Position numbers and translations under genes: made by a program. Shown in pieces: positions 5,408-41,378 of a DNA stretch of 64,000 nt (the stretch's first letter is position 1; every line of letters begins with the position of its first letter). The notes beneath the pieces were generated by a model. It saw only the letters and a list, made by a program, of their open reading frames with translations. It made no database searches and was not told the origin of the DNA. Location: positions 1,738,001 to 1,802,000 of the forward strand of contig NZ_AP021903.1 in assembly GCF_018326005.1 (NCBI RefSeq), read 5' to 3'. This DNA is from Pseudomonas sp. Seg1 (GTDB lineage Bacteria; Pseudomonadota; Gammaproteobacteria; Pseudomonadales; Pseudomonadaceae).

Positions 5408-7366
5408 ATGACTGTCCATGAAAAAAATACCCAAGGCGAGCCCGGCAGGGCGGCAATGAAGGCCATCCGCGCAACCCGGGCGTCACGCGCTCCAACGCCA
5501 CCGAAACTACAGGGTTTGCTGGATAATGTTTCAGGTGACGATGACAACAAACTACCGAAGGCTCGGCAGGGTTTTCCTAACGAAGTTATTATCGAAAACG
5601 TTCTGGATATCAATCCTGTCCCTCCACCTAATCGCGACGTAAAGTTGCAACTATTGTGGAATGGCGCGGAAGTGGGCGATGCCATCATAGCGAAGACTCC
5701 GGTAACTACTCAGCAGAAACTGGTATTGCCGAGTCTTGAGACGACTGCAGAAGGTCGGTTTGCATTGAGCTATAGATTGACCTATGTCAGGGATGTATAT
5801 GATTTTCCAGTTCCGGAATTTATTCTGATTGATAAGGAGCCGCCGAATAAAAATATCGCTGGTGAGCCAATTGAATTACCGACTCCGTACGAGGACGGTC
5901 GTATAACAATAGAGCGATTGGCAACCGACCCTGATCTTGAGTTGACGATCCCGCTGCATCCCGATCGACGAACCGGGGATACTGCCCGTGTCTATATGGG
6001 CGATAGCATCCCGGGCACGATTGTCGACACCTATATTGCCCCCGACGACGGTAGCGCTGCTATGACGGTCACACTGACGAAGGCCCGGATCGAAGCCGAG
6101 GGTGAGGGGAAAAAAATCATTTATTACCAATGGCAGGATCGCGTTGGCAATGAAGGACCGCCTTCACATGAACTGGACGTTCTGGTTCTGCTGGCGCAGC
6201 AGCCCACTAACCTGAAGCCTCTTGAAGTGCCTGAGGCGCCGGGTCCCGATAACCTCATCACTATCAAGGATGCGTACCCTGATGTGGGCGTTATCATCCG
6301 CGAGTACGACAATGTTGGCGCGATGGATGAGGTAGCGCTGACGTGGGATGGCATTCCTCAGCCACGCAAAAGGTCCGTTGATGGTTTTCCGATGATCTTC
6401 GACGTTCCTTACCACCATGTGAAAGCCAAAGGACTCGGGGAAAGGCCTGTCAGCGTCACCTACTCGATATGGCGTAGCACGCAGGAATATCCTGAAAACA
6501 CGGTTGTGCCGGTGAAGGTCGACCTTCGGCGTCCTGGTACCCCGCCACCTGATCCAGAAGATCCGGAAACAGGCAACCCGAACTTGAGCGTGGTAAGGGT
6601 TCAAGCGGCAGTCACTGGCGATCCCAATAAATTTGAGCTCGTCGATGCAGGGCAGGACGGCACGGCGAGTACAGTCATTGATAAAGTTCGAGAAGTTGGT
6701 GACGTCTATCAACTCTACTGGGGGGACGTAGCTGTTCCCGCTCCTGGAGGGGTGTATACCGTGACTGGTAGTGAAGTTGACGACGATCCGGTTCCGTTTA
6801 CCATTCCACACGCATTTATTACTGCACAGGGTAATGGTCAGGCAATTCCCGTACATTACAAGATTACCAATCCCGCATTGCCCGACAATAATCCAAACCC
6901 GTCACTTCGACAGCCAGTGAGCGTTTACGTCGTGCCCGTCACCTTGCCAGAGCCAAAGATCAACTTTACTTTCATGATTGGAAGTAGCGAATACTTGGAC
7001 TGTGGGTCGCTGAGAAATATTGCCGGACAGGGACATGTAGCCGTTGTGACGGTTCCGGGCGGAGCGCCTTTGGAGTTGGGCATGGATTTGGCGTTTACCT
7101 GGACTGGCGTGGGCTGGGATGGAACAGATCCTGTTCCAATCACACCTTATGAATTTACCAAAAAACTTGCCAACGAAGAACATCGAGACGGATTCACTGT
7201 GTATATACCTTACAACGCCGTCTTGCAACCGATCATAGACGGCAGTGGGAGCATTGAATATTCAGCTTTAGTACAGGGTCGGTCTGAGACTTCTGATAAG
7301 CACGAAGTTCAAGTGATTGCCCGCACAGGCGACGGAGGTATGTGCCCGATCCCGACTGTTCGTTAA
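5408..7366 (+). CDS. Large hypothetical protein, tandem paralogue 2 (Ig-like repeats)
   Basis: 652 residues with the same architecture as the preceding gene: a basic Ala/Arg-rich N-terminus, then several beta-rich units. One contains YYQWQDRVGNEGP, aligned with YYRLRDRAGNIGP of its neighbour. Another repeated element has the form VYQLYWGDVAVP / VALTWDGIPQP. Two cysteines lie near the C-terminus (YLDCGSL and MCPIPTVR). A strong AGGAGAG ribosome binding site lies 8 bases before the ATG. The 127-base gap to paralogue 1 has no terminator, so the two may be cotranscribed, and a perfect terminator follows this gene. No signal peptide is visible. Function unknown; the codon use is more AT-tolerant than in the core genes. 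Confidence 0.7.
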   Translation: MTVHEKNTQGEPGRAAMKAIRATRASRAPTPPKLQGLLDNVSGDDDNKLPKARQGFPNEVIIENVLDINPVPPPNRDVKLQLLWNGAEVGDAIIAKTPVTTQQKLVLPSLETTAEGRFALSYRLTYVRDVYDFPVPEFILIDKEPPNKNIAGEPIELPTPYEDGRITIERLATDPDLELTIPLHPDRRTGDTARVYMGDSIPGTIVDTYIAPDDGSAAMTVTLTKARIEAEGEGKKIIYYQWQDRVGNEGPPSHELDVLVLLAQQPTNLKPLEVPEAPGPDNLITIKDAYPDVGVIIREYDNVGAMDEVALTWDGIPQPRKRSVDGFPMIFDVPYHHVKAKGLGERPVSVTYSIWRSTQEYPENTVVPVKVDLRRPGTPPPDPEDPETGNPNLSVVRVQAAVTGDPNKFELVDAGQDGTASTVIDKVREVGDVYQLYWGDVAVPAPGGVYTVTGSEVDDDPVPFTIPHAFITAQGNGQAIPVHYKITNPALPDNNPNPSLRQPVSVYVVPVTLPEPKINFTFMIGSSEYLDCGSLRNIAGQGHVAVVTVPGGAPLELGMDLAFTWTGVGWDGTDPVPITPYEFTKKLANEEHRDGFTVYIPYNAVLQPIIDGSGSIEYSALVQGRSETSDKHEVQVIARTGDGGMCPIPTVR

Positions 7367-34498: not shown

Positions 34499-35719
34499 AT
34501 GAGTGACATCAATCAGAAAGACGACCAGGAAATCGGCCCAGCAGGCGAAAAGCTGCAGAAAGTCCTCGCCCGTATCGGCGTCGGCTCGCGCCGTGACGTG
34601 GAATCCTGGATCAGCCAGGGTCGGATCAAGGTCAATGGCAAAGACGCCACCCTCGGTCTGCGCGTCGACATGCACGACGCCATCACCATTGATGGCAAGG
34701 TGATCAAGCGCGAAGAAGCGGCCGAATCGGTCCGCCGCGTGATCATGTACAACAAACCCGATGGCGAGATCTGCACCCGTGACGACCCGGAAGGCCGTCC
34801 GACCGTGTTCGACAAGCTGCCGCGTCCGAAAGAAGGACGCTGGATCAACATCGGTCGTCTCGACATCAACACCACCGGTTTGCTGATGTTCACCACTGAC
34901 GGTGAACTGGCCAACCGCCTGATGCACCCATCCTACGAGATGGACCGTGAGTACGCCGTGCGTGTACGCGGTGAAGTCGACGACGAAATGATCGAACGCC
35001 TGAAGGCCGGCGTTGTGCTGGAAGACGGCCCGGCCAAGTTCACCGACATCAAGCAGGCGCCAGGTGGCGAAGGCTTCAACCACTGGTATCACTGCGTGGT
35101 GATGGAAGGGCGTAACCGTGAGGTTCGTCGTCTGTGGGAATCGCAAGGTCTGGTGGTCAGCCGTCTGAAGCGCGTGCGTTTCGGTCCGGTGTTCCTCAAC
35201 TCCGACCTGCCGATGGGCCGCTGGCGCGAAATGAGCCAGTACGAAGTCGACATCCTCAGCGCTGAGGTGGGCCTGACGCCGGTTGCCATGCCGCAACTGA
35301 ACGCCAAGAGCAAAGACAAGCTTGAGCGCATGCAGCGCAAATCATCGCGGCCGATGGCCAAGACCGAGCGCGTGCGCACCCTGCGTCCAGCCGCTGGCGC
35401 GCCGACCGGCCCACGTCCGGCCCGCGAGCCGCAGATCGAAGGCGAGCGTCCAGGTCGCAAGCCAGTCGCCCGTGACGGCGAGCGCGCTCCGCGTCCGGCC
35501 AACGGTCGCACTGAGCGTGGCGAGCGTGGTGCGCCTGCCGGTCGCGGTACGCCAGTGGCAGATCGCCCGGCGGACACCACCAACAAGCGTCCTGCGAAAC
35601 CCGCGCCGAAGCGTCCGGGGATCAAACTGGTCGACGGCGACAAGCCATCGGGCAAGCGTCGCGGTGCACCGGCCGGTTCCGGTCAGCGTCCGGGTTTCGG
35701 TCGCAAGAAGCCTGAGTAA
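34499..35719 (+). CDS. rluB: 23S rRNA pseudouridine(2605) synthase RluB
   Basis: 406 residues from the ATG after GGGAGGTGCCCAG. An N-terminal S4 RNA-binding domain (EKLQKVLARIGVGSRRDVESWISQGRIKVNG) is followed by the RsuA/RluB catalytic domain with the catalytic Asp in NIGRLDINTTGLLMFTTDGELANRL and the EGRNREVRRLWESQGLVVSRLKR motif. A ~120-residue Arg/Pro/Ala-rich tail is likely disordered and RNA-binding. RluB modifies helix 89 of 23S rRNA. Confidence 0.94.
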   Translation: MSDINQKDDQEIGPAGEKLQKVLARIGVGSRRDVESWISQGRIKVNGKDATLGLRVDMHDAITIDGKVIKREEAAESVRRVIMYNKPDGEICTRDDPEGRPTVFDKLPRPKEGRWINIGRLDINTTGLLMFTTDGELANRLMHPSYEMDREYAVRVRGEVDDEMIERLKAGVVLEDGPAKFTDIKQAPGGEGFNHWYHCVVMEGRNREVRRLWESQGLVVSRLKRVRFGPVFLNSDLPMGRWREMSQYEVDILSAEVGLTPVAMPQLNAKSKDKLERMQRKSSRPMAKTERVRTLRPAAGAPTGPRPAREPQIEGERPGRKPVARDGERAPRPANGRTERGERGAPAGRGTPVADRPADTTNKRPAKPAPKRPGIKLVDGDKPSGKRRGAPAGSGQRPGFGRKKPE

Positions 35720-35738
35720 TCGGGTTTAGCACCGAATG

Positions 35739-35772
35739 AAAAAACGCCAACCGCAGGGTTGGCGTTTTTTTT
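35739..35772 (+). terminator. Terminator of rluB
   Basis: 14-bp stem AAAAAACGCCAACC / GGTTGGCGTTTTTT with loop GCAG and an extended T run, 19 bases after the rluB stop. Confidence 0.93.
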
Positions 35773-35803
35773 CGTCTGGCGAAAGTCGGGTGGTGCTTTT
35801 GAG

Positions 35804-35907
35804 GGCCTCATCGCTGGCAAGCCAGCTCCCACAGGTTTCTGTTGCGTTGCATAAATCCTGTGCACACCGCAGCTTCCTGTGGGAGCTGGCTTGCCAGCGA
35901 TGAGGCC
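35804..35907. repeat. REP pair, AGCTGGCTTGCCAGCGATG family
   Basis: Inverted copies GGCCTCATCGCTGGCAAGCC and complement, same subfamily as 21659-21741, between rluB and the minus-strand M29-like gene. Confidence 0.92.
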
Positions 35908-35930
35908 AATGCACCCCATAATTTCCAGGA

Positions 35931-36896
35931 TCAGAACACAAACCGCCCATCAAACACCGGTTTGTCATCCAGTGCCAACACGCCACTGGAGAAGATCAGG
36001 TCCAGGTGATGACTGCCCTTGGCGCCACCGCCCAATCCCAGATGCAGCCCACAATGCCGCTCCTCAAACCCGGCATTACGCGCATACAGATCCTTCACCC
36101 CTTCGTTGGTACCAATCCCCAACTCCTCAATCCGCCGGTTTGAAGGATTGGCGTCCAGATACTTGTTGAAATCATGCTCCAGCCCCGGCACATCGGTGGC
36201 GATGCGGCTGATGGTCGAGTTCTCGATCCACAACTCGAGCGGTGACTCCAGCACGCCATATTTGCGCGCGAACGGGATGGTGCTGAGGAAGGTGCCCTTG
36301 AACTTCACATGGCCGTTGATGGCTTCACTGTGAGTCGCGATTTCACCGGGCGCCAGGTCGAAGTTGCCGACGCCATTGATGTCGGTCCACTTCTTGATGC
36401 TGCTCAAGGGGGTTTCAAACCGCGAGCCGTGCTCATCGGTAAAGCTCAGCGTGGTCGCCTGGGACATGCGCTGGATCAAGTGGCTGTTCAGCCCGGCAAT
36501 ACGCTGCGGGGCGATGCTGAAAGTGTCATAGAAATAGTCGCCGTAATCCTTGAACAGCAGCGACTTCTTCCAGTTCTCCGCCATCACCGCTTGCAGCGCG
36601 CGGATAAATTCCGGGCCGTCGGGGCGCGGGTTGGGCAGGGTGGAAGAGTCGTAAAAGAAAATGTACAGATCGCTGTCGGTAATCGCCGAGGTCAGCGCTG
36701 CGGTGCTTTCCAGGTCCAGGCGTCGGGCGCTGAAACTGAAACGCGGATGTTCGCCAGCCTGTTCGGCGATGGCGCCAGTCAGGGCTTCGTAATCCGCCGT
36801 GTGGCCGAGCAATATCTTCGCCGAGTCGAGGCCGGCGAGGGCAGGGTGATGTTCGAGGTAGTAAAGGAAATGCGAGATCGCGCGGGGCTTATCCAT
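35931..36896 (-). CDS. M29-aminopeptidase-like / NicX-like metalloenzyme
   Basis: 321 residues from MDKPRAISHFLYYL (GGGAGG 6 bases upstream); the longer frame reads through the preceding hairpin. The C-terminal third carries the sequence pattern of M29 aminopeptidases and NicX-type dioxygenases: EELGIGTNEGVKDL, EERHCGLHLGLGGG and SHHLDLIF, keeping the Glu, Glu, His, His and Asp that bind metal in M29. The N-terminal half is poorly conserved. Cytoplasmic, no signal peptide. A 45-codon peptide gene lies 70 bases upstream with a hairpin in between, so peptide maturation is a possible job; from memory, M29-like proteins also occur in crocagin-type peptide clusters. Alternative: a stand-alone ring-cleavage or peptidase-like enzyme. 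Confidence 0.72.
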   Translation of the reverse strand: MDKPRAISHFLYYLEHHPALAGLDSAKILLGHTADYEALTGAIAEQAGEHPRFSFSARRLDLESTAALTSAITDSDLYIFFYDSSTLPNPRPDGPEFIRALQAVMAENWKKSLLFKDYGDYFYDTFSIAPQRIAGLNSHLIQRMSQATTLSFTDEHGSRFETPLSSIKKWTDINGVGNFDLAPGEIATHSEAINGHVKFKGTFLSTIPFARKYGVLESPLELWIENSTISRIATDVPGLEHDFNKYLDANPSNRRIEELGIGTNEGVKDLYARNAGFEERHCGLHLGLGGGAKGSHHLDLIFSSGVLALDDKPVFDGRFVF

Positions 36897-36918
36897 GAGT
36901 CCTCCCTGACTGACCGAG

Positions 36919-36958
36919 AAAAAAGTGGCAGGCACGACCGGCCGGATCATGCCTGCCC
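36919..36958 (-). terminator. Hairpin/attenuator between the 45-codon peptide gene and the M29-like gene
   Basis: Read on the minus strand: GGCAGGCA / TGCCTGCC (36951-36958 with 36928-36935), an inner GATCCGGCCGGTC stem, then ACTTTTTT. It starts 9 bases after the peptide stop codon and ends ~23 bases before the enzyme's start, so it may limit read-through into the enzyme. Confidence 0.8.
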
Positions 36959-36966
36959 GGGATGTC

Positions 36967-37104
36967 TTACAGAGGCCACATCGCCGTGCCGAACGGAACG
37001 ACCGCATCGGCTTGCATCATTTCCACAGCCGCCTCATGGGTCGGTGCTTCAAACCATTCGTCCAGTTGCAGTTCGGTATCCAAGTCTTTTTCCAGTGCTT
37101 GCAT
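36967..37104 (-). CDS. 45-residue peptide, candidate precursor peptide
   Basis: ATG at 37104 is preceded by AGGAG at a 7-base distance, one of the better sites in the region, and the frame ends at TAA (36967-36969). The peptide starts MQALEKDLDTELQLDEWFEA; its first ~33 residues are acidic and predicted helical (including THEAAVEMMQADA). The last 12 are neutral and hydrophobic (VVPFGTAMWPL). That split looks like a leader followed by a short core. No hydrophobic signal sequence. The downstream hairpin and M29-like enzyme support a ribosomal peptide module, but this is inference; no family was recognised. A simple small conserved protein is the alternative. Confidence 0.6.
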   Translation of the reverse strand: MQALEKDLDTELQLDEWFEAPTHEAAVEMMQADAVVPFGTAMWPL

Positions 37105-37559
37105 GGTCGATCTCCTAGATGACTTTCACGGTTGTGACTGGCCGGTCGAAGTGGCCGGCAAGACGTGAAGAACCTAGTTCAGGGACTTTTGTAATGCAAA
37201 AAATAATTTATTTAATTTTTAAATGGACTTTTTATTCTGTTTTTTAAGCGGCGTTTTCTTATTTAAAAACAAAAAACTAAGTGGTGGTTTTCATTAGCAA
37301 GCTAGCTACCGTCAATTTGCAGACGTCTGACGGAAATTTCTGAAATGGAAACTTCGCGTTACGCACTGTAAATAAATGTTTACGAAAAACCCGGTAAAAC
37401 CCAACGGAACACCGCGCACCGAGCCAGTGTAAGGAAAAGCTGCCGAAGCGCCGCTGGCCGGGCATGGCGCAAGGCTCTGGCGCGCTTGTTTCAGAGGCGT
37501 TTGAAGAGTGAGATGCGCCCCATGCCTGTCGTGCAGGTGCATAACAAGAAGGAGGCGCA
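37105..37559. other. Intergenic region, AT-rich, between divergent transcription units
   Basis: Bases ~37190-37290 are strongly AT-rich (TTTATTTAATTTTTAAAT). On the minus strand TTGCAT and TAGGTT, 17 bases apart near 37165-37195, are a possible weak promoter for the peptide gene. No convincing gene was seen in the rest. Confidence 0.5.
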
Positions 37560-37706
37560 ATGAACGCCGTGACTGATCTCCACCTCTCTCCGTGGGACGG
37601 TTTTTCCATCGTCCCCGTCGATGGCCTGCAAAGGCCTGACTCAATTTTTGCAGCCGCTCGAGCGTCTCGAGGCGGACACACGCAATCCCGGCAACCGATA
37701 CGCTGA
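37560..37706 (+). CDS. Possible 48-codon ORF with strong ribosome binding site
   Basis: The ATG follows AAGAAGGAGGCGC, a very good Shine-Dalgarno site. The product (MNAVTDLHLSPWDGFSIVPV..., ending basic, SRQPIR) has 48 residues and matches no family I know. It lies upstream of the aromatic permease leader on the same strand, and could equally be part of a regulatory transcript. Coding status is unproven. Confidence 0.35.
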   Translation: MNAVTDLHLSPWDGFSIVPVDGLQRPDSIFAAARASRGGHTQSRQPIR

Positions 37707-37874
37707 TCCAGCGGAGTCTGGCAGCAGGGGGTTAGCGGTGTACAATGCGCCGCGTTTTAACTGTGACCCTCTGCGTAATCGCGCAAACCTCAAGGCTATC
37801 CGCCTTGTTCACTCCGCCGCGTCACAAGCGTGTCGGGTTCGATTTCGTCACAGATAAAAACAAACAGGTGACGC

Positions 37875-37937
37875 ATGACCGTTGTAAAAAAGCTGAACTC
37901 CTGGTGCCTGCGCTGGGGTTTGATCGGGGCTGCTTGA
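37875..37937 (+). CDS. Putative 20-residue leader peptide upstream of the aromatic permease
   Basis: ATG after AGGTGACGC; product begins MTVVKKLNSWCLRWG and ends LIGAA, with two Trp in 20 residues, far above the usual frequency. It ends 60 bases before the permease start. The density of tryptophan just ahead of an AroP-type gene suggests translation-coupled control. No clear terminator hairpin follows, so the mechanism is not evident. Confidence 0.5.
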   Translation: MTVVKKLNSWCLRWGLIGAA

Positions 37938-37997
37938 AATCGCAACCTTGCAGCAACGTCTACTGAACATCATCAAACCTTGCGTGAGACCTTTTTC

Positions 37998-39419
37998 ATG
38001 AGTGGACAACCCTCGCAATCAGGCGAGCTGAAACGCGGCCTGAAAAATCGCCACATTCAACTGATCGCCCTCGGTGGCGCGATCGGTACCGGATTGTTCC
38101 TCGGCTCGGCCGGGGTCCTGAAATCCGCTGGCCCGTCGATGATTCTCGGCTATGCCATCTGCGGCTTCATTGCCTTCATGATCATGCGCCAGCTCGGCGA
38201 GATGATCGTCGAAGAGCCGGTGGCCGGTTCCTTCAGCCATTTCGCGCACAAGTACTGGGGCGGCTTTGCCGGTTTCCTGTCGGGCTGGAACTGCTGGATC
38301 CTGTACATCCTGGTGGGCATGTCGGAGCTGACAGCGGTCGGCAAGTACATCCACTACTGGGCACCGCACATTCCGAGTTGGGTCACGGCGGCCGGCTTCT
38401 TCGTGCTGATCAATGTGATCAACCTGGCCAACGTCAAAGTCTTCGGTGAAGCCGAATTCTGGTTCGCGATCATCAAGGTCGTGGCCATCGTCGGCATGAT
38501 TGCCCTCGGCAGCTACCTGCTGGTCAGCGGCCATGGCGGCCCGCAAGCCTCGGTCAGCAACCTGTGGTCCCACGGCGGTTTCTTCCCCAACGGCGTCAGC
38601 GGTCTGGTGATGGCCATGGCGATCATCATGTTCTCCTTTGGCGGTCTGGAAATGCTCGGTTTCACCGCCGCCGAAGCCGACAAGCCGAAGACCGTGATCC
38701 CGAAAGCGATCAACCAGGTGATCTACCGGATCCTGATTTTCTACATCGGCGCCCTGGTGATCCTGTTGTCGCTGACCCCATGGGACAGCCTGCTGGAAAC
38801 CCTCAACGCCTCCGGCGATTCCTACAGCGGTAGCCCGTTCGTGCAAGTGTTCTCGATGCTGGGCAGTGACACCGCTGCGCACATCCTCAACTTTGTCGTG
38901 CTGACGGCGGCGCTGTCGGTCTATAACAGTGGTACCTACTGCAACAGCCGTATGCTGCTGGGCATGGCCGAGCAGGGCGATGCGCCAAAAGGCCTGGCGA
39001 AGATCGACAAACGTGGCGTGCCGGTGCGTTCGATTCTGGCTTCGGCGGCAGTGACGCTGATCGCTGTGCTGCTCAACTACCTGATCCCGCAGCATGCTCT
39101 GGAGCTGCTGATGTCGCTGGTCGTTGCGACCCTGGTGATCAACTGGGCGATGATCAGCTTCTCGCACTTCAAGTTCCGCCAACACATGAACAAGACCAAC
39201 CAGACGCCGCTGTTCAAGGCACTGTGGTATCCATACGGCAACTACGTCTGCCTGGCGTTTGTGTTGTTCATCCTCGGCGTCATGCTGCTGATCCCGGGCA
39301 TTCAGATCTCGGTGTACGCGATTCCGCTGTGGGTCGTGTTCATGTGGGTCTGCTACGTGATCAAGAACAAACGTGGTGCGCAGCAGGCTCTGCACGCGTC
39401 GAGTTCTGTCGCGAAGTAA
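37998..39419 (+). CDS. AroP/PheP-type aromatic amino acid permease (APC family)
   Basis: 473 residues from MSGQPSQSGELKRGLKNRHIQLIALGGAIGTGLFLGSAG, the AAT-subfamily N-terminus with the GGAIGTGLFLG substrate loop. Twelve membrane spans. The block FGGLEMLGFTAAEADKPKTVIPKAINQVIYRIL and the ALSVYNSGTYCNSRMLLGMAEQG motif are those of AroP/PheP/LysP proton symporters. AroP-like specificity is the best guess, though ProY-like transport cannot be excluded. A terminator follows; an upstream Trp-rich leader may regulate it. Confidence 0.85.
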   Translation: MSGQPSQSGELKRGLKNRHIQLIALGGAIGTGLFLGSAGVLKSAGPSMILGYAICGFIAFMIMRQLGEMIVEEPVAGSFSHFAHKYWGGFAGFLSGWNCWILYILVGMSELTAVGKYIHYWAPHIPSWVTAAGFFVLINVINLANVKVFGEAEFWFAIIKVVAIVGMIALGSYLLVSGHGGPQASVSNLWSHGGFFPNGVSGLVMAMAIIMFSFGGLEMLGFTAAEADKPKTVIPKAINQVIYRILIFYIGALVILLSLTPWDSLLETLNASGDSYSGSPFVQVFSMLGSDTAAHILNFVVLTAALSVYNSGTYCNSRMLLGMAEQGDAPKGLAKIDKRGVPVRSILASAAVTLIAVLLNYLIPQHALELLMSLVVATLVINWAMISFSHFKFRQHMNKTNQTPLFKALWYPYGNYVCLAFVLFILGVMLLIPGIQISVYAIPLWVVFMWVCYVIKNKRGAQQALHASSSVAK

Positions 39420-39433
39420 GCAAAGTGCAAAAA

Positions 39434-39468
39434 CAACAAACCCGGCCAAGTGCCGGGTTTGTTGTGTT
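39434..39468 (+). terminator. Terminator of the aromatic permease gene
   Basis: 13-bp stem CAACAAACCCGGC / GCCGGGTTTGTTG with a 5-base loop, 15 bases after the stop. It also borders the 3' end of the convergent SHMT-like gene. Confidence 0.88.
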
Positions 39469-39473
39469 CGCCG

Positions 39474-40823
39474 TTATACGTAATCGGCGATGGGATAGAT
39501 CGCGCACAATGCCTCGGCCTGTAAGCGGAATTGCTCCTGTGAGGCCGGGTCCAGCGAGTATTCTCGCTCGCCTTGCGGCGTTACCTTGTCGAGAATCTGG
39601 CACAGCAGACTGACAACTTCGCGGCATCCCTGCGGGTCGATGTGACGCTGCGCTATGGAGCCGGTGCCGATACGCAATCCGCTGGCGATAAGTGCCGGTC
39701 GAGTCTCGCCGGGGACGCGATGTTTGTTGACGATGATCCCGCAATGCTCCAGCGCCTTCTCGGCAATGGCGCCGGTGATGCCGCCACGCAAGCGGATCAG
39801 CACCGTGTGGTTTTCACTGCCGCCGCCCACAACCTCGTAATCATGAGCTTGAAACGCGCTGGCAAGCTCATCGGCGGTGCTGCGAATTCGCCCCATGTAA
39901 GCGTCGAACTGCGAAGACATCGCATAGCCCAGCGCCGCAGCCTTGGCTGCAATCATATTGACGGCTGGCGCCCCCTGCATCTGCGGAAACACGGCTTGAT
40001 CGAGGGCGCGGCGGAAGGTTGTTCGCAAGCCGGGAACCTTGGTATTGGCGTCCCGGCCCGATAGGATCAGGCCGCCACGAGGGCCCATGAGTTGTTTGTG
40101 TGTGCACGTCGTGGTGACGTGAGCCGCGTCGATCGGACTCGGATGTCGGCCCGTGGCGACCAGTCCGGCGATATGAGAAATGTCGGCGAGCAGGATCGCC
40201 CCGGCTTCATCGGCAATTTGGCGAAACCGTTCAAAGTCCACGGCCCGCGAATAGGCTGTGGCGCCGCACATGATGATGCGCGGGCGATGCGCAAGCGCCA
40301 GGCTGCGCACATTGTCGTAATCGATGACGCCGTCTGATGTCGTTCCGTACTGAATCGCCTTGTAGTAGGCGCCCGAGAAGGCTTTGGAGCTGCCATGGGT
40401 GAGGTCTCCGCCGTGTTCAACAGCCATGCCCAGCAGGGTGTCGCCCGGCTCAAGCAACGCAGTGAGCACCTGATAAGTGGCGTTCGAAGCCGAGTGTGAC
40501 TGCACGTTGGCATATTGGGCACCGAACAACTCCCGCGCCCTTCGAATGGCAAGCGATTCGACTAGGTCAACGTTCTCGCAGCCGGCGTTATAGCGCCTGC
40601 CTGGCATCCCCTCGGCGGTCACGTTGACCAGTGCCGACGCAGAGGCGGCAAGCGTGCGGGGCATGACTGCGCAGGAGGAGGAGACCAATGACAGCACTCG
40701 GTGTTGTCGTGCGACCTCAGCGTCGAGAATCCCCGCCAACTCGGCATCTTCCGTACGAAGATCCGCCAGACCATTTCGCAGTAAGTCGGCCTGGTTCATC
40801 AGCGGTTCAGTTTTGACTGCCAT
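39474..40823 (-). CDS. SHMT-fold PLP enzyme, divergent (transaldolase/aldolase-like?)
   Basis: 449 residues from MAVKTEPLMNQADLL (AAGGAA upstream). The fold-type I SHMT scaffold is clear: LFGAQYANVQSHSASNATYQVL, DISHIAGLVATGRHPSPIDAAHVTTTCTHKQLMGPRGG with the PLP lysine in THK, and SGLRIGT with the substrate-carboxylate Arg. The normal KYAEGYPGKRYYGG block reads NVTAEGMPGRRYNAGC, so two active-site Tyr are Thr and Asn; the ASEN-type segment is SSSCAVM; the usual HGGHLTHG is HGGDLTHG. It is therefore unlikely to be housekeeping GlyA. L-threonine transaldolases and aldolases with this fold are an option. Divergent from the XRE gene. Confidence 0.8.
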   Translation of the reverse strand: MAVKTEPLMNQADLLRNGLADLRTEDAELAGILDAEVARQHRVLSLVSSSCAVMPRTLAASASALVNVTAEGMPGRRYNAGCENVDLVESLAIRRARELFGAQYANVQSHSASNATYQVLTALLEPGDTLLGMAVEHGGDLTHGSSKAFSGAYYKAIQYGTTSDGVIDYDNVRSLALAHRPRIIMCGATAYSRAVDFERFRQIADEAGAILLADISHIAGLVATGRHPSPIDAAHVTTTCTHKQLMGPRGGLILSGRDANTKVPGLRTTFRRALDQAVFPQMQGAPAVNMIAAKAAALGYAMSSQFDAYMGRIRSTADELASAFQAHDYEVVGGGSENHTVLIRLRGGITGAIAEKALEHCGIIVNKHRVPGETRPALIASGLRIGTGSIAQRHIDPQGCREVVSLLCQILDKVTPQGEREYSLDPASQEQFRLQAEALCAIYPIADYV

Positions 40824-41378
40824 GCTTCGTATTCCTTCCATGTTTGCTGCGTACTGCGAACAACAGCACGCCTTCCTTGGTTTCACGACTTTGCGTACAT
40901 CCACTTGCCGATCGGTACAGGCGCATTCCGTGTTTTGCGGGCAATGCGCGCAAAACTAACGTCTGTACGAGCAACCACTGCTCTTGCGTTTCGCTCGCTG
41001 ATCAGAGGAGGTGAGCTCGACGCATCATAGGTTTTTCAGTGAGGAACGCCAGAAAAATTAATCAGAAAAATGAACATTGTTCAAATAAAATGATTCTTTT
41101 TGCGTAAGCAAACGGTGTAAAACTGCAGTTCGGGAGGCGTTTGTCGAGTGATGGCAGCCAAAACGGACGAGTCGGTACGCAGCATGAATCGACTCCGTAG
41201 AGCTGAGCATGTGGTTGTTGCGTCTGACTTTTGTACCGAAACCAAGGATGGAGAATGCTATGATCGCTGGCGGTTCCAATACCAGTACAACTATCTGCGT
41301 AGTGTTCCTGTGTCACCACTGAATGCTCATTCGTGGCGTGTTTTCTAATTGCCTTTATAAAAAGATGGTAAGTACTTT
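40824..41378. other. Divergent intergenic region between SHMT-like and XRE genes
   Basis: 555 bases, becoming AT-rich after ~41030 (AAAAATTAATCAGAAAAATG, TTCAAATAAAATGATTC). It should contain the promoters of both divergent genes. Short frames on both strands (e.g. 41151-41348 plus) have no convincing start signal except the one listed at 41260. Confidence 0.5.
41260..41322 (+). CDS. Possible 20-residue Cys/Ser/Thr-rich peptide
   Basis: ATG with GGAG at 6 bases. The product begins MIAGGSNTSTTIC and ends VVFLCHH; a GG pair is followed by Ser/Thr residues and two Cys. It is very short and unsupported by any neighbour that modifies such peptides, so coding is doubtful. Confidence 0.2.
   Translation: MIAGGSNTSTTICVVFLCHH

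Follow-up and report, generated by a model that had tools for sequence, protein, structure and literature searches.

In a 64,000-nucleotide stretch of the Pseudomonas sp. Seg1 genome (contig NZ_AP021903.1, positions 1,738,001 to 1,802,000; the window in what follows), a gene for a 45-residue peptide stands directly upstream of a gene for a CgnB/E-like metalloprotein. The two are probably a minimal cassette of the type that yields ribosomally synthesized and post-translationally modified peptides (RiPPs), with the CgnB/E-like protein as its one dedicated modifying enzyme, and the best reading of this cassette is that it is related to, yet distinct from, the crocagin system. The proposal builds on the conservation and linkage of the two genes, purifying selection, a hairpin between the genes, and the predicted fold and conserved ligands of the protein. 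From these we infer that the peptide is the substrate, and we propose which residues are altered, by what chemistry, how the hairpin adjusts dosage, and how the product might be released and used.

Linkage and constraint of the two genes

Both genes are read from the reverse strand, and the host genome is a single contig of 6.63 Mb. The peptide gene (36967-37104) was translated to give MQALEKDLDTELQLDEWFEAPTHEAAVEMMQADAVVPFGTAMWPL and is preceded by the ribosome-binding site AGGAG (37112-37116), 7 nt ahead of its ATG. The enzyme gene (35931-36896, start ATG at 36896) encodes 321 residues and has GGGAGG as its ribosome-binding site (36901-36906). An earlier note on this DNA had described the 45-codon gene, its AGGAG site, a hairpin nine bases past the stop and the downstream metalloprotein, all of which were confirmed.

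A scan of named genome contigs gave 178 places with relatives of the enzyme, and the best 80 were kept as the basis of all results quoted for 80 loci. All of them are from Pseudomonas, with enzymes 76-98% identical, and in each one the peptide gene precedes the enzyme match on the same strand at a distance of 64-94 nt; the peptide has 45 residues in 76 loci and 44 in four. The pair is also present in 30 of 30 loci of a second collection, compared on both strands, which overlaps the first in species and includes the host genome. Among 398 genomes of Pseudomonas species, 143 contain the enzyme and 141 the peptide; 140 contain both, out of 144 with at least one of the two. The three enzyme-only genomes carry decayed pieces (30 residues in G034, 21 in G178, and 124 with two stops in G250), and the one peptide-only genome (G376, at about 6120-6254 of locus L131) keeps a 16-residue enzyme remnant and a peptide with a drifted core, DTVMPFGTAMWPM.

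In more distant loci with an intact enzyme, the peptide is directly upstream in 12 of 12. These are eight distant Pseudomonas loci (L132-L139, within the 140 genomes); G717 (L113/L130), taken as Piscirickettsia litoralis, with an enzyme 55% identical and an upstream peptide ending in ENWFDLETHQEAVEMMEEDAVVPFGTALWP; Burkholderia stagnalis and B. arboris (L116, L117), with enzymes 46-48% identical and with MQENQQIDLLEWMKEDTHPQAVDMMVEDAVVPFGTALWPV and a close variant 58 nt upstream; and L127, from a BD1-7-like genome, with an enzyme 50% identical and the peptide MNDQDIDIEEWLDEEVPEDAVTMMLETSVVSFGTALWSS. Both sets bear out the expectation in the earlier note that relatives keep the peptide beside the enzyme. 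As to its converse, a common occurrence of the enzyme without the peptide, no intact close homologue lacking the peptide was found among the loci whose DNA was examined. Matches occur in 3 of 369 genomes of a class sample, namely the host genome, G717 and G424; in G424 the enzyme is a broken copy (two pieces, with stops), and a peptide was not found. An order sample gave matches in 5 of 145 genomes; the host genome and G817, whose enzyme is 93% identical to a protein named BD1-7 clade, carry the pair, and G798, G860 and G888 contain remote M29-like relatives without this peptide.

When a profile of the peptide was searched against 5.8 billion proteins, 66 rows reached E 10 or better; their source names are from Pseudomonas, Burkholderia, Paraburkholderia, Piscirickettsia, Vibrio, Chromobacterium, Photorhabdus and Aeromonas. 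In 15 cases, the longest contig recorded for a peptide is as long as that recorded for an enzyme match (below 2.3 kb in five, 3.9 kb in one), which suggests a single contig. The peptide had been called unannotated, which holds in part, as some sources record it as a hypothetical protein. No enzyme relative was found on viral contigs; one IMG/VR contig (L120:11740-12222) ends within a Pseudomonas-like pair, with the peptide and the start of the enzyme gene, and this contig is likely host DNA.

Three parts can be distinguished in the peptide: residues 1-16 are variable and acidic, residues 17-33 (WFEAPTHEAAVEMMQAD) are conserved and leader-like, and residues 34-43 (AVVPFGTAMW) form a near-invariant core that is followed by PL and a TAA stop. 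Over the 80 loci, the ratio of nonsynonymous to synonymous substitution rates (dN/dS) is 0.34 for codons 1-16, where the fixed 45-codon frame of the comparison misaligns the first three codons of the four 44-residue peptides and so inflates dN, 0.018 for codons 17-33 and 0.012 for codons 34-43; the enzyme has a value of 0.092 (35 of 69 loci with equal length). The peptide is under strong purifying selection and, because dN/dS of codons 17-43 is so low, it is very likely translated and functional. This division into a variable front and a frozen middle and tail resembles that of leader and core, and is more in keeping with a precursor or binding partner than with an arrest peptide.

An alignment of the last residues, as the earlier note had advised, shows the same near-invariance beyond Pseudomonas. 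Sixty-six peptides were aligned on FGT, 65 from databases or windows together with that of L127, a set that differs from the 66 rows of the search; P0031 (a 30-residue fragment without the tail) and P0188 (71 residues, E 0.21) were left out. Within the core V, F, G, T and W are unvarying, P is present in 63 peptides and A in 65; the residue before W is M or L in 66 of 66, and W is followed by one residue in 15 and by two in 51. Several of the peptides are near-identical and the queries lay partly in the core, so that peptides with an altered core are under-sampled in these counts. Three Pseudomonas genomes outside the set (G152, G182 and G184) have the tail P replaced by A. Overall, the tail VVPFGTA[M/L]W is nearly unchanged across genera that include Burkholderia, Chromobacterium, Photorhabdus, Vibrio, Aeromonas and Piscirickettsia.

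The downstream metalloprotein

The enzyme is predicted to adopt the M29/NicX/CgnB fold, with NicX as its top structural match. In the numbering of P0001, which begins one residue ahead of Met, its presumed metal ligands are E186, E259, E280, H286, H298 and D300; all six are invariant in 22 of 22 homologues, in agreement with the earlier statement that the enzyme keeps its metal ligands. Judged from sequence, the full dinuclear ligand set of CgnB (E161, E252, E274, H280, H291 and D293) appears to have counterparts here: five of the six were aligned through a weak profile match to 6zsv (E 0.79), and E186 as the counterpart of CgnB E161 is our own assignment. P0001 itself gave no match in the PDB by sequence up to E 1, and profile A2 gave six weak rows (E 0.23-0.95), including CgnB (6zsv_A). 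With sequence matches this weak, the CgnB/E assignment rests on the predicted fold and the ligand register. Pfam and NCBIfam contain no family for the peptide or the enzyme, and six homologues compared with Pfam returned two weak sub-cutoff rows only, WbqC and DUF4062. Some homologues are named after crocagin CgnE/B and many are called 'leucyl aminopeptidase' at NCBI.

The earlier label 'M29-like' is right for the fold, but the closest named families are CgnB/CgnE and NicX, and the M29 catalytic tyrosine is missing, as no Tyr stands between H286 and H298 in any of the 22 homologues. The source on M29 peptidases describes an EEHYHD set in these enzymes (PMC7023490). The protein is also shorter, with 321 residues against 397-413 in the matched M29 chains. 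A role as tailoring enzyme is plausible.

A remote M29-like family was seen at three loci (L125:7350-8746 and L128:7292-8708 on the reverse strand, L126:6670-8131 on the forward strand). Its members have 373-394 residues and are 27-30% identical to members of the A2 alignment, and the one in L128 scores above the Pfam Peptidase_M29 cut-off. In 3 of 3 loci a small same-strand open reading frame (ORF) lies just upstream, ending in TSWRVAGYYNKN, PPWQITWTTRSKDQNQ and PTWKISWETSQDKQ; the two genes are possibly another two-gene cassette of a peptide and an M29-fold protein, with paired aromatic residues.

The intergenic hairpin and the flanking genes

The hairpin between the two genes (36957-36927, reverse strand) has 13 pairs and a 5-nt loop, begins 9 nt past the peptide stop and is directly followed by ACTTTTTTCT / ACTTTTTT. 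Its folding energy is -24.6 kcal/mol (z -3.93), and 0 of 200 shuffles were equally stable; the terminator scan by itself was not significant, with 3 sites against 2.2 expected from shuffles, and Rfam gave no match at the hairpin when 35600-38100 was searched. A stem of 10-13 pairs, 13 being the maximum that the script allows, occurs in the spacer in 80 of 80 loci, with its onset 8-11 nt past the stop in 76 and 16-17 nt in four. The T run noted earlier recurs as well, at least four T being present within 10 nt after the stem in 64 of the 80. Covariation was counted on 15 stems of equal length (13 distinct), and loci with other stem lengths were left out: 94.7% of cells are paired, both-side changes are found in 16 cells against 5.1 in shuffles, and three of five measures lie above all shuffles. 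Pairs with a both-side change (4 against 3.2) are not unusual in these stems, and further pair types (10 against 10.7) are not above the shuffles. Both Burkholderia loci have a dissimilar stem in the spacer, without a T run, and the Piscirickettsia locus has a dissimilar stem that is followed by TTTTTTT. Because of the stem in each locus, the covariation counts and the spacers of distant genera, we conclude that a stem is maintained between the peptide and enzyme genes.

In Pseudomonas, the likely role of the hairpin is partial termination, which fits an excess of precursor over enzyme. More generally, it may act as an attenuator or as a stem by which the peptide message is protected or processed, and the near-constant spacing between stop and stem would also permit attenuation linked to translation.

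Upstream of the peptide gene, the alignment of 8 loci revealed a promoter-like block, TTGCAT-17-TAGGTT (37171-37199, reverse strand), which may be a sigma-70-like promoter; a consensus promoter scan detected no promoter at this block. The presumed 5' leader contains an inverted repeat, CTTGCCGG...CCGGCCAG (37138-37162, reverse strand), whose pairing is better in several folded relatives. Block and repeat together (37138-37199) are retained in 8 divergent Pseudomonas loci.

In Pseudomonas the pair lies between rluB and a divergent aroP-type gene. The latter, encoding an AroP-type permease, adjoins the pair in most Pseudomonas loci that reach that far, and beyond it a serine hydroxymethyltransferase-like gene comes next in 14 loci; in the window this region is 37980-40904. 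The Burkholderia, BD1-7-like and Piscirickettsia loci do not have aroP beside the pair. Six flanks of about 6-7 kb on each side (two from Pseudomonas, two from Burkholderia, one BD1-7-like and one from Piscirickettsia) were compared for ORFs of 90 or more residues. No third gene is common to them, the cross-genus ORFs of this size being the enzyme and its other-frame shadows. They likewise share no radical-SAM enzyme or partner protein, and no CgnC dioxygenase, a comparison that covered the surroundings of the pair and not the rest of the genome. A second CgnB/E copy is absent from the host genome, where only one match was obtained. A large palindrome around CATCGCTGGCAAGCCAGCTCCCACAGG (35803-35908) gave six microRNA rows in Rfam, at 35802-35909 and below gathering scores, and is probably a REP-type repeat pair.

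Proposed function and relation to known systems

As a RiPP-type cassette, the pair would work as follows. The short gene would give a precursor peptide that binds the CgnB/E-like metalloprotein through its middle part (residues 17-33); the VVPFGTA[M/L]W tail would enter the metal site and be altered there, most likely at the invariant Trp or in the Pro-Phe-Gly-Thr stretch. Candidate chemistries are hydrolysis, elimination, cyclisation or, as suggested by NicX, oxidation. The hairpin would lower the expression of the enzyme relative to the peptide and so provide much precursor per enzyme. A tail that is near-invariant across orders points to one conserved product, which would not be a diversifying antibiotic but may, in a way comparable to PqqA, serve in housekeeping or signalling. 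The general features of a RiPP pair are present, namely a short gene linked to a possible modifying enzyme, and a recognition segment and a C-terminal core under selection. More tentatively, a single metalloenzyme of CgnB/NicX fold, with no oxygenase or other partner gene beside it, could turn the tail into one conserved small product, such as a cofactor, a metallophore or a signal. About a third of the sampled Pseudomonas species would then make this product, as would some Burkholderia, Chromobacterium, Photorhabdus, Vibrio, Aeromonas and Piscirickettsia; few enzymatic RiPP pathways would be smaller, and the core would match that of PQQ in conservation. As crocagin inhibits CsrA in vitro (PMC10070186), the product could by analogy be linked to the Rsm/CsrA system, with low probability.

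Several points weigh against a processed peptide. The pair is known here from genes alone, with no product, modified peptide or translation seen. No transporter, leader peptidase or second enzyme is common to the six flanks, so that export and leader removal would either rely on genes at other loci or be absent. In two of the 140 genomes (G216 and G305) the enzyme is in two pieces and the peptide is kept. The acidic residues 1-16 are the opposite of the basic CgnA leader, and CgnE, which has the same fold, binds peptide, seemingly without catalysis (PMC10070186). Finally, the core is so invariant that an unmodified peptide, as a subunit or a regulator, fits too.

This last possibility is the main rival, and we regard it as rather unlikely. 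The peptide would be a non-covalent activator, inhibitor or small subunit, and the pair would be, for instance, a hydrolase or a NicX-like iron dioxygenase with some other substrate. The wholly frozen residues 17-43, the seemingly non-catalytic peptide binding of CgnE, NicX as the closest solved fold and the lack of a common third gene all suit such a partner. However, the short hydrophobic end of the tail, with its invariant Trp one or two residues from the end, is core-like; of the studied proteins encoded beside a short peptide, the closest ones, CgnB/E, serve RiPP synthesis; and a hairpin after the peptide gene would favour an excess of peptide and not a 1:1 ratio.

There is a still smaller chance that the peptide is a regulatory leader, for which TnaC and SecM are the model arrest peptides. 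Stalling near the C-terminal ...MWP(L)-stop would then control read-through of the hairpin and thereby enzyme expression. A W-P close to the stop, an onset of the hairpin that is nearly fixed and matches the footprint edge of a stalled ribosome, the T run in most loci and an adjoining gene for an aromatic amino-acid permease in Pseudomonas are consistent with this. Yet the constraint extends beyond a C-terminal arrest segment, since residues 17-33 lie far upstream of the stop and evolve as slowly as the tail; nor is W at a constant position relative to the stop, the distance varying by one residue. In addition, the two Burkholderia loci have no T run after the stem, and neither these nor the BD1-7-like and Piscirickettsia loci have aroP next to the pair. 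The fold and the many 'leucyl aminopeptidase' names might suggest an ordinary M29 aminopeptidase gene preceded by a small conserved ORF that has nothing to do with it; this is highly improbable, because the two genes co-occur in 140 of 144 genomes and the pair recurs in other orders, and the enzyme is short and lacks the Tyr of the M29 set.

With the M29 metallo-aminopeptidases (AmpT 2ayi, PepS 4icr and AmpS 1zjc) the enzyme shares the fold and dinuclear-type metal ligands, but it is without the Tyr of the EEHYHD set, about 80-90 residues shorter, and has a constant peptide neighbour. To NicX, a 2,5-dihydroxypyridine dioxygenase (7cup, 7cn3) whose substrate is a small ring compound, it is 17% identical. 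NicX has a mononuclear Fe(II) site and ring-cleaving activity, and to our knowledge no peptide gene is linked to it. PqqA and MftA, precursors of RiPP cofactors, are short and have tails conserved across distant bacteria, as does the peptide described here; their systems need radical-SAM enzymes and partner proteins, whereas no such gene is common to the flanks of this pair. The gvg cluster of Pseudomonas fluorescens, for 4-formylaminooxyvinylglycine, is likewise a Pseudomonas cluster with small ORFs missed by annotation, but identity with it was rejected, as the small ORFs described for it are lysine-rich or signal-peptide-like and its gene table lists no M29- or CgnB-like gene (PMC8067088).

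In the open-access literature, no paper containing VPFGTA, FGTALW or FGTAMW and no description of this pair was found; the supplementary precursor list of PMC10070186, which may include the peptide, was outside the scope of this search. That the pair belongs to no described family, as the earlier note had it, is therefore accurate for that literature but has to be qualified, since Adam et al. (2023) founded the CgnB/E family, reported homologues from about 100 genomes, and mined the surroundings of single-copy CgnB/E homologues for putative precursors, which they report (PMC10070186). The general idea is already in print, and antiSMASH 7 is described as including a crocagin rule (PMC10320115). 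That the tail is frozen across orders implies a shared and important function, which the open-access literature found does not name. If the peptide is processed, the pair would be a widespread and unusually conserved two-gene RiPP-type system in Gammaproteobacteria, whose peptide often goes unnamed.

The crocagin system of Chondromyces crocatus comprises the precursor CgnA and the peptide-binding proteins CgnB and CgnE (PMC10070186). In both cases a CgnB/E-like protein with an M29-derived fold and the full CgnB-type ligands adjoins a short precursor-like gene, and a Trp is at or near the C-terminus of the peptide. The pair differs in having one protein in place of CgnB and CgnE, 12% identical to CgnB over the aligned fold, and no common neighbour gene such as a dioxygenase or protease. 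The peptides are mostly 34-46 residues from the likely start, with an acidic front, whereas CgnA has 21 residues and is basic; their core, VVPFGTA[M/L]W plus one or two residues, is frozen across orders and has M or L before W in place of the adjacent Tyr-Trp of the crocagin core (I-Y-W). The pair thus looks like a relative of the CgnA-CgnB pair but not like the crocagin system itself, because it has no Tyr-Trp core and no CgnC-like gene or second CgnB/E copy beside it. Since its protein seems to work with neither the CgnC dioxygenase nor the CgnE partner, two factors that complicate crocagin, the pair would make the function of CgnB/E-fold proteins directly testable.
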